Program-made: the position numbers and the translations under genes
Assembly (NCBI RefSeq): GCF_000429945.1
Contig: NZ_AUCV01000020.1
Span: 1 to 64,000 of the forward strand
DNA: 64,000 nt
Reading direction: 5' to 3'
Source of the DNA: Desulfogranum japonicum DSM 18378
Lineage (GTDB): Bacteria; Desulfobacterota; Desulfobulbia; Desulfobulbales; Desulfobulbaceae
Part shown: positions 52,162 to 57,202 of the stretch, one piece after another
Layout: each line of letters begins with the position of its first letter
How positions within the stretch are numbered: the first letter of the stretch is position 1
Notes under the pieces: model-generated
What the model was told of the DNA's origin: nothing
The model's input: the letters and a program-made list of their open reading frames with translations, nothing else
The model's database searches: none

Positions 52162-52607
52162 TTGTTTCTCTTGCATCACTCAGCTACCAGTTTTGTCTTC
52201 AATAGAATTATGTATCAGATAATAAAAACACAGTTTATTACCACAATGTTTTCAATGTGTCAAATAGGTAAAACCTATCACAAAATATATTACTATACGC
52301 AAACGGCAACTACTCATAAGAAAACGGGCAAACGTGACTCCCCCTGTATTTATAACTGGTTACAGGGTGCCTGAGATCTGCGCAAGCAGGCTGGTGCTGC
52401 GCATTGGATCATACGTAAACAGGGCTGATTGCGGAAAGATCAGGTACACTGTGAGCAATTATCTTCTATAAACGCAATGAAAAGCTCAAGCGGAAGGGCG
52501 CAAATTAAAAGACGTTTATGTTATTTCATCAGATATGCCGGAATGGTATACTTCACTCAAATCAGACGAACCTTACTCGTCCGCTCAGAATACGGACTGA
52601 ATGAATC
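52162..52607. other. Gap holding left arm of a 58-bp perfect inverted repeat
   Basis: About 450 bases between the divergent HdrA-MvhD and radical SAM genes. From 52331 to 52453 lies a family 2 repeat. The remainder is AT-rich without coding signal. Confidence 0.55.
52331..52453 (+). repeat. Dispersed repeat family 2, copy A (left arm around radical SAM gene)
   Basis: About 120 bases, beginning near ACGTGACTCCCCCTG and ending CAGGTACACTGTGAGCA. Bases 52379-52436 are an exact inverse match to 53686-53743 (58 of 58 by eye). A diverged direct copy lies at 55976-56106. No protein coding. Confidence 0.85.
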
Positions 52608-53657
52608 ATGACAACAGACAATATAGAAAAACAAATCAAAACAGGTTCTCTTGCCGGGGGAAAAACATACGCATTTAACGAGGAGCACGATCAAAAAACT
52701 CCCGCCCAGATGTGGTTTCAGAATAGCGTTGACGGCCTCACTCTTTTTATTGTTTTTTATACCCAAGCCTGCCGATGGTCGAGATGCATGGGATGTAATC
52801 TTCCAAGTAAATCTTCATATCACCATGTGGGATATAAAGATATTATTGCCCAGATTGACCATGTTTTCTCCCTGCCCGAGGTTCTCACAAAACGCCATGT
52901 AATCAGAAAGTTGATAATCAGCAACAATGGCTCCATTCTTGACCAGGATACTTTTTCATCCACAGCCCTGCTGTATCTAATGGCCAAAATAAACCTCAAC
53001 TTTACCAATCTGGATATTCTCACCTTGGAGACCAGGCCAGAATTTGTAGAGATTGAAGAACTTGAATTCCTCTCAAGAACCCTTGCCGAGGGAGATACTC
53101 CTACCCTGCTGGAACTGGGTATAGGCTTTGAGGCATTTGATGAAACAATCCGAAATGATACCTTCAACAAAGGGTTAACACTTGAAACCTTCGAAAGGTT
53201 TATTGGACAGGTGTCACCATTCAACTGCCGGGTGAAATGCTATTTTATGCAGAAACCCATACCCAATTTTTCTGATAGCGATGCTTTGGCTGATATTATC
53301 CATGCCATAGACTACCTGAATGACATGTCCATACGATATAATGTAAGAATCAACATGCACCTTAATCCCACCTATGCAGCATACGGTACGCCATTGGAAC
53401 AATCCTTTTACGAAGGCACGTTCGTGCCTCCAAAGCTGGTTGATGTGGTACAGGCAGTTCTATATGCAGAGGATTCCTCCCTCACCCTCTTTGTCGGATT
53501 GTTTGATGAAGGTCTGGCCGTGGAGGGAGGCTCTTTTATCCGCGAAGGCGATGAACATTTGATTAAGGCCCTTGAAACCTTCAATAGGACACAGAATTTT
53601 AAACAGTTACAACAAGCCGTTTCCCCACGTACCTTTTGCTCCAACACAACAGGGTAA
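52608..53657 (+). CDS. Radical SAM protein with CX4CX2C cluster motif (RaSEA/Elp3-like)
   Basis: A 349-residue protein. The cluster site reads ACRWSRCMGCNLPSKSS: Cys-X4-Cys-X2-Cys in place of the usual CX3CX2C. This, the KLIISNNGSILD stretch and the LTLETRPEFV motif recall the TIGR01210/RaSEA branch related to Elp3 (RaSEA works on archaeosine tRNA), but the acetyltransferase or other extra domains are missing. A true target is not known. ATG 52608 has no strong binding site. It lies alone between inverted repeat arms 1.25 kb apart and in front of a CNT transporter gene, so lateral transfer is possible. Confidence 0.75.
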   Translation: MTTDNIEKQIKTGSLAGGKTYAFNEEHDQKTPAQMWFQNSVDGLTLFIVFYTQACRWSRCMGCNLPSKSSYHHVGYKDIIAQIDHVFSLPEVLTKRHVIRKLIISNNGSILDQDTFSSTALLYLMAKINLNFTNLDILTLETRPEFVEIEELEFLSRTLAEGDTPTLLELGIGFEAFDETIRNDTFNKGLTLETFERFIGQVSPFNCRVKCYFMQKPIPNFSDSDALADIIHAIDYLNDMSIRYNVRINMHLNPTYAAYGTPLEQSFYEGTFVPPKLVDVVQAVLYAEDSSLTLFVGLFDEGLAVEGGSFIREGDEHLIKALETFNRTQNFKQLQQAVSPRTFCSNTTG

Positions 53658-53671
53658 AACGTACCTGTTCA

Positions 53672-53770
53672 CGGTGGCCCTGATATTCCGCAATCAGCCC
53701 TGTTTACGTATGATCCAATGCGCAGCACCAGCCTGCTTGCGCAAAGCTCAGACAGCCTGTAACCAGGTTC
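53672..53770 (-). repeat. Dispersed repeat family 2, copy B (right arm around radical SAM gene)
   Basis: About 100 bases on the opposite strand to copy A. Bases 53686-53743 are the exact reverse complement of 52379-52436. It lies between the radical SAM stop and the CNT gene. Confidence 0.85.
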
Positions 53771-53857
53771 AGATACATGGAAGTTGTCAAGTTGAGTTAC
53801 TTCAATTAGCTGATTATGATAAATGAGCAGAGTTATGGAAAGAGATAAGGAGAAGTT

Positions 53858-55096: not shown

Positions 55097-55164
55097 CACT
55101 TATCGATACTGCTCACAGTGCTTCTGATTTTTTTCGTGATCAACCTGTGTGCGTTCAAACACAC

Positions 55165-55200
55165 TGTAACCAGTTACAAAAATACGGGGGAGTTGGTACT
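55165..55200 (-). repeat. Fragment of dispersed repeat family 2
   Basis: CTGTAACCAGTTACAAAAAT and the following CGGGGGAG match, in reverse complement, the start of copy A (CCCCCTGTATTTATAACTGG, TTACAG). Only the end of the element is present, in the gap after the CNT gene. Confidence 0.5.
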
Positions 55201-55230
55201 GTAACCGTTTCTTCTATGAAGGGTTGTCAC

Positions 55231-55930: not shown

Positions 55931-55975
55931 ACACTAACGAGATCACTGCACAGAGTGTCAGAGGGAAGACTATTA

Positions 55976-56106
55976 CACGTGAAAGCCTTCCCTCTTTATA
56001 AGTGGTTATAAGGCACCTGAGATTCTCACAAACAGACTGGTGCAGCGTCTTTGGCCCGTCAGCCACGCTGACCTGGGAAAAATCAGGTACACTGTGAACA
56101 GTTACC
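55976..56106 (+). repeat. Dispersed repeat family 2, copy C
   Basis: Direct orientation relative to copy A. Shared blocks: TATAAGTGGTTATAAGGCAC, CCTGAGAT and AATCAGGTACACTGTGAACA. The interior is diverged, so it is an older copy. Confidence 0.65.
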
Positions 56107-56477: not shown

Positions 56478-57078
56478 TGTGTCTCTTTACTGGTAGTTTA
56501 TTAACAAAAACTTCAACCAGTCCGGATTTCTCATGAGAATAGTAGTTGATACGATGCACCAAATATGCAGCAGCAGTCAACTTCTTTGATTTTTTCCAGG
56601 AGCCTGTCGGAGAAAGCTCTTTTTCCCATATTTGTGTTATTTCCAGAAAATCAATGCTCGCAATATCAAGTATATGGCTGTGCTAGATTTCCTGAAAATA
56701 CCTTAATCTGAGATACATAGCAATTCTCTGACAGACTCCTAGAAACGCTACGTTTTCAAAACCGAATCATGTCTATTCACAAATGAGAATTTTTACTCAA
56801 GTTTAGGTAAACACAGACTCCGAGGCATACGATAAATACTATTCATTCTGTACCTCAAATAGGTCTTCAAAAAAATCATGAGAAACACAGACTAGCACCA
56901 CAAAGTGGTAACAAAGATATCTTATGGCATGTGTTTTTTCAAATGTCAAACTGACTCAAGCATTTTTATAAAAAAATCCATTGAGAAAACTCAATCAGGC
57001 TGAATGGTATCTGAACGGCATAGCATTCTGGTGGGAATTGGCGGCAGTGCGTCATACTGTCTGTACGATTTTGTACAA
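56478..57078. other. Gene-free region with an inverted-repeat element
   Basis: About 600 bases upstream of the HU/IHF gene, up to the tRNA terminator. The family 1 copy at 56598-56740 lies here; the HU/IHF promoter is expected in the 56480-56590 part. The rest shows nothing supportable. Confidence 0.5.
56598..56740. repeat. MITE-like inverted-repeat element, family 1, copy 3
   Basis: Left end AGGAGCCTGTCGGAGAA, right end in reverse complement AGGAGTCTGTCAGAGAA: 15 of 17 bases match. The interior AGAAAATCAATGCTCGCAAT, ATGGCTGTGCTAGATTTCC recurs in the two copies near 20 kb. No coding capacity. Confidence 0.82.

Positions 57079-57125: not shown

Positions 57126-57202
<77 letters not shown>

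Follow-up and report, generated by a model that had tools for sequence, protein, structure and literature searches.

A perfect inverted repeat around a radical SAM gene in Desulfogranum japonicum lies within two copies of a dispersed, IS66-like MITE

Mobile insertion cassettes (MICs) carry passenger genes between IS ends. They belong to the non-autonomous elements that an IS mobilises (PMC3281130), and a MITE-like composite that moves a resistance gene has also been mentioned (PMC3189936). The latter source presents MITEPsy1 as one of the short bacterial elements that have terminal inverted repeats and are believed to depend for their movement on a transposase supplied in trans by a parental IS; it is 100 nt long, tentatively of IS5 type, flanked by 4-nt duplications and present in six copies in strain 1448A (PMC3189936). 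For the IS66 family, ISDge4 of Deinococcus geothermalis, a member of the ISBst12 group, is given the ends GTGACTACTCAGCA / GTAACTGCTCAGCA with an 8-bp repeat, and that group is characterised by a single ORF (PMC12898284). For Frankia, 8-bp direct repeats at IS66-type insertions are reported, with classical IS66 ends that begin GTAAGCG (PMC11946415). Inverted arms kept alike by conversion are described for the palindromes of the human Y chromosome (PMC3723533).

In this work, we compare with these systems a locus of Desulfogranum japonicum DSM 18378, situated in a stretch of 64,000 nucleotides (the window), where two oppositely oriented copies of a dispersed element of about 159 bp stand on either side of a radical SAM gene. 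Like MITEPsy1, the element is short and has terminal inverted repeats, but it differs from it in its IS66-type ends, its 8-bp duplications and its roughly one hundred copies. Its ends (GTAACTACTCA.../GTAACTGCTCA...) and 8-bp direct repeats resemble those of ISDge4, and its end motif also terminates two IS66 transposase remnants of this genome, whereas the element itself measures about 159 bp and has no transposase gene. With MICs and composite MITEs it would share being a non-autonomous element mobilised by an IS; unlike them, the present locus has a MITE copy on each side without a common target duplication, and its gene occurs without the MITE in relatives. As in the Y palindromes, inverted arms appear to have become alike by conversion, but here this concerns one short tract in a dispersed element, other close pairs of which are not clearly homogenised.

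The dispersed element and its IS66-like ends

A blastn search of the host's own genome (5.8 Mb in 124 contigs) returned 170 candidates for the element, 40 of which were scored and all 40 matched. Searching with a 22-base pattern for one element end, allowing up to 3 mismatches, gave 126 genome sites compared to 0 for the reversed control; some elements matched at both ends, and the 100 sites listed of these 126 merge to 96. The genome thus holds roughly a hundred copies, with the 96 merged listed sites scaling to about 120. For family-level statistics we assembled 52 copies from the loci of the best blastn and end-pattern matches (from the 126 pattern sites) and the window, a set that drops matches below 40 bits, including the one at 55105-55227 of the window, and therefore favours well-preserved copies. 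Copies were extended to the ends of the model even where the match was partial, and 47 of the 52 then measure 156-162 bp.

The 8 bp flanking the copies are identical on both sides in 13 of the 52 and match at seven positions in a further 11 (24/52 at 7-8; 29/52 at six or more), whereas unrelated flanks, compared among 51 of the 52 copies, match at 7/8 or better in 0.24% of 2,550 comparisons. No copy among the 52 is contained in an ORF of at least 150 aa: five overlap such an ORF partly and 47 are free of overlap, compared to 1,016 of 1,934 random places in the same loci that fall inside one. The element is therefore short (below ~300 bp), non-coding and high in copy number, it has terminal inverted repeats (ends GTAACTACTCATAGGGG and GTAACTGCTCACAGTGC in the copy at C57:25117-25275), and as a family it shows an 8-bp target site duplication, although the two copies at the locus retain only 2/8 matching positions. 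It is a MITE, a new family of a known kind. We detected it in 8 of 59 genomes of the taxonomic family, this one included, with one match in a congener (G003) and seven in another genome (G052), and a literature search on MITEs and transposases in the Desulfobulbaceae found no paper.

The same genome contains four fragments of the IS66 transposase family on three contigs. Two remnants, on C59 and C78 and each at a contig end, run to a common CTGTGATCAGTTAC and diverge beyond it, which maps the end of the IS; Pfam confirms the C59 fragment as an IS66 transposase, and no such end was found near the fragments on C58. Both sides of a well-preserved MITE copy agree with the mapped end at 14/17 positions, and over 51 copies the mean match is 11.2/17 on the 5' side and 13.4/17 on the 3' side, compared to 12/17 for the best of 20,000 random 17-mers. 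Both the ends and the 8-bp direct repeats are characteristic of IS66 elements of the ISBst12 group, and the ISBst12 type fits the element better than the classical type, given how classical ends begin. The transposase gene (DDE_Tnp_IS66) is absent from the element, and because 159 bp leaves no room for one, it is a derivative rather than a member IS. Judged by its ends and its 8-bp duplications, it is best classed as an IS66-type MITE with ISBst12-like ends that was probably mobilised in trans by an IS66-family, ISBst12-like transposase. Neither an intact IS66 transposase nor TnpB was found in the assembly, which an intact IS66 copy appears to interrupt at C59 and C78; the missing TnpB match fits the single-ORF ISBst12 group, to which the IS66 remnants of this genome probably belong.

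The window contains further repeats of other kinds. At 56598-56742 lies a member of a second short palindromic family, with ends like AGGAGnCTGTCnGAGAA, that has at least about 30 copies in this genome, mostly 84-91% identical, and more in two congeners, G002 and G003. A dispersed stretch at 55825-55936 matches, at 69-84%, several places in G003 and a few in its own genome.

The two copies at the locus

An earlier note on this DNA had described 52379-52436 and 53686-53743 as exact reverse complements enclosing one complete gene, with strongly diverged copies of the same repeat elsewhere in the window, and our analysis bears out all three points. The two segments agree at 58 of 58 bases and are separated by 1,249; the match extends imperfectly to 95 nt at 91% identity without gaps and to 116 nt at 87%. 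Between them lies a single complete ORF, at 52608-53657 on the forward strand (349 aa). Allowing up to 3 mismatches, the 58-mer occurs in the 5.8-Mb draft genome only at these two places, and its reversed control nowhere, so the match between the arms is not a matter of chance.

The arms are the centres of two MITE copies, delimited by nhmmer and alignment. The left copy (157 bp, 52306-52462, forward strand), with its core at 52379-52436, sits between the divergent starts of an hdrA2 gene (52179, reverse strand; assigned by NCBIfam) and of the radical SAM gene (52608, forward strand). The right copy (53661-53819, reverse strand), with its core at 53686-53743, measures 159 bp as extrapolated, its outermost ~19 bases (53801-53819) being unaligned by the profile; it starts 3 bases past the stop of the radical SAM gene and extends to 38 bases short of the start of a nucleoside transporter gene assigned by Pfam. 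The left copy is flanked by CGCAAACG and CTTCTATA, which agree at 2 of 8 positions, as do the flanks of the right copy. A third copy, at 55105-55227 on the reverse strand, is strongly decayed (nhmmer 29.3 bits), and a fourth, at 55945-56105 on the forward strand, is diverged (61.2 bits; flanks matching at 3/8), with a core 59-60% identical to the arms.

Between 52100 and 53950 we counted 4 promoter-like sites compared to 4.3 in shuffled sequences, and 0 terminator-like sites compared to 1.6, and Rfam at gathering scores has no family at the arms, its only match being a tRNA at 57129-57202. RNA folding z-scores are -2.4 for the left arm, -0.4 for the right arm, -3.4 for a well-preserved copy (L004) and -1.2 for a partial consensus; as a palindromic MITE folds by construction, these scores are no sign of a functional RNA, and folding gave none at the arms. 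The perfect inverted repeat has the look of something ordinary in a genome rich in repeats, not of a gene cassette.

Identity of the core

Whereas the cores of the two copies are identical, their outer 102 alignment columns are only 59% identical; the single core mismatch in the multi-copy alignment is the aligner's gap at the last core bases. Within the core, both arms depart together from the consensus of the 52 copies at 8 positions, and from that of the other 50 at 9, and six of the eight are carried by only 0-3 of the other 50 copies. Outside it, they share 2 departures from the other-50 consensus and differ from each other at 42 columns. The contrast in common departures (9 compared to 2) has a Fisher P of about 1e-7, and zero core mismatches would have a probability of about 1e-10 if the 42 differences were spread at random over 160 columns, both values applying to one pair that was chosen for its perfect match.

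When columns were permuted 2,000 times, the observed run score was never reached, either by the window pair or by the highest score among all 1,326 pairs, in a test that ignores the better general conservation of the core (median departures 0.103, compared to 0.149 in the outer part). Two pairs outrank the window pair in run score, each with one member whose match to the model is partial. When core identity is regressed on outer identity, the window pair comes first, with a residual of only 1.7 SD, and no clear homogenisation was found in other close MITE pairs. We also considered that another copy had acted as donor, or that the arms belong to a subfamily with their core, and rejected both, as the genome holds no third match within 3 mismatches; a young subfamily, accordingly, does not explain the pair.

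An identity confined to the core, shared rare variants and 59% identity outside support gene conversion between the arms, one of the readings that the earlier note had proposed. The tract, bounded by the outermost common departures, measures 51 to 58 bp, so that the 58-bp core in each copy would correspond to the converted segment. Departure rates are 0.155 in the core, 0.167 in the left outer part and 0.333 in the right outer part (P about 0.002); in its outer part the right copy belongs to the 8 most decayed of the 52. The rates point weakly to transfer from left to right, weakly because core rates no higher than 0.19 also occur in 6 of the 8 copies whose outer departures exceed 0.25, the right arm being one of these six. 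A local mis-assembly at the repeat is possible in a draft genome of 124 contigs.

The account that we favour builds on what is observed, namely the repeat family with its copy number and duplications, the match of its ends to IS66, and the patchy identity with its shared rare variants. Two old, independent insertions in opposite orientation would have placed, by chance, one copy of a non-autonomous ~159-bp element on each side of the radical SAM gene, with an IS66-family, ISBst12-like transposase acting in trans. The arms would first have diverged, and a later local homologous exchange, by gene conversion or by template switching between the inverted copies, would have transferred 51 to 58 bp of core sequence from arm to arm and so produced the perfect match, with the radical SAM gene a bystander. 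Taken together, we hold this combination of old insertions, local core conversion and a bystander gene to be correct with good confidence; conversion is the mechanism that we infer for it, and the pair itself probably has no function.

The radical SAM gene and other possible histories of the locus

The intact gene at 52608-53657 encodes a protein that scores 113.3 bits against the RaSEA model TIGR01210, below its cut-off of 212.15 bits, and that we would consider a relative of the archaeosine-biosynthesis protein RaSEA without filing it as RaSEA. It has no Pfam match at 1e-3, and a search of its sequence profile against solved structures found no relative. C55, C60 and C63 are invariant in 6 of 6 aligned homologues, which are 52-56% identical to the window protein.

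Of 257 genomes of the class that were searched, 8 have the gene, counting this one. Neither it nor the adjoining nucleoside transporter was found in the six congeners, among them four genomes that are less than 95% complete. With an alignment as query, 53 loci from many phyla in named genomes encode relatives, among them Candidatus Electrothrix aarhusensis and Desulfobulbaceae bacterium BRH_c16a; a single-protein query of named-genome contigs found none. Among the loci with full-length homologues (L036 and L090-L093), four have no inverted repeats of at least 22 nt around the gene, and L036 has two inverted-repeat pairs at 73-74%, one of which spans the gene and by eye is no better than chance. 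Nothing was found that ties the radical SAM gene to the repeats.

Some of these loci have features of their own. The homologue at L094 and L095 (G064 and G060) matches only query residues 4-172 and has a stop, which suggests that it is truncated or decayed there. Upstream of the homologue in L090 (G049, a genome without a MITE match), the ORF at 37-1290 matches an IS66-family transposase (PF03050, 44.5 bits). In L092 and L093 (G156 and G148, both of genus g41) the homologue adjoins, in each genome, an ORF that resembles an RluA-type pseudouridine synthase.

This distribution bears on the possibility that both copies and the gene moved as one MITE-bounded cassette by means of IS66-recognised outer ends, a transposable unit of the kind that the earlier note had envisaged. 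The same MITE end does lie at both outer ends, and absence from 6/6 congeners together with the patchy occurrence in the class is what a mobile gene would leave. Yet the outer flanks match each other at only 2 of 8 positions, so that no common target duplication surrounds the unit as delimited with an extrapolated right outer boundary, and the inner flanks likewise match at 2/8. The genome has no further occurrence of the core, no viral-contig relative of the gene was confirmed, and the only plasmid matches are two at 42% coverage and 30% identity. Five other carriers in the family (G022, G049, G060, G064 and G067) have no MITE match, which makes the patchy history of the gene independent of the MITE. 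We therefore find no support for a cassette and rate it as very improbable.

Among the 96 merged listed sites there are 5 pairs less than 2 kb apart, with 3.1-4.9 expected for 96 to 120 copies in 5.8 Mb; the count derives from the 100 listed of 126 sites and does not include the window pair, whose right copy is not among them. Close MITE pairs are thus about as frequent as chance predicts. In a search for an empty site, three congeners (G002, G003 and G006) matched both sides of the locus, but in each the 57-60 kb block lies on another contig than the hdrA2-like match; some of these matches may be paralogues, and no comparable locus emerged. Given its absence from all six congeners, the radical SAM gene may be a recent arrival.

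Recombination between the arms could instead flip the gene, and such exchange would keep the cores identical. The geometry allows it, as the earlier note had pointed out, with 58 identical inverted bases 1,249 bases apart; a 58-bp match is, however, short for efficient RecA-mediated exchange, which we count against inversion. Had the segment inverted in the past, the target duplications would be expected to have been swapped, and we compared flanks across the two copies: the right outer flank matches the left inner one at 5/8, a level reached or exceeded by 6.7% of unrelated flank pairs, and the left outer matches the right inner at only 2/8, in a comparison with little power because both window duplications are decayed. 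Nor did any pair among 51 copies have both crosses at 7/8 or better. Active inversion thus goes unsupported, and we judge an invertible segment very improbable; slimmer still is the chance of a live unit in which the gene flips with respect to the nucleoside transporter gene and to hdrA2, which diverges from it, so that its expression is switched and repeated exchange keeps the cores identical.

That both arms were inserted recently and derive from one source copy, with assembly error or rapid decay behind their outer differences, is hardly credible unless the assembly is wrong: apart from the perfect core, which would agree with the recent insertion proposed earlier, the window flanks match at 2/8 where 24 of 52 copies reach 7-8, the right copy is much decayed, no source copy with the core of the arms was found in the genome, and all 42 differing columns lie outside the core (about 1e-10 if evenly spread).

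On the favoured account, ordinary parts suffice for a conspicuous perfect inverted repeat around a gene, namely two old insertions, placed by chance, from an abundant MITE family and a single later conversion of the local core. The window pair is a compact natural candidate for bacterial conversion over a tract of 51-58 bp, and the MITE family, with roughly a hundred copies, readable 8-bp duplications and IS66/ISBst12-type ends, provides a usable repeat set for this lineage.
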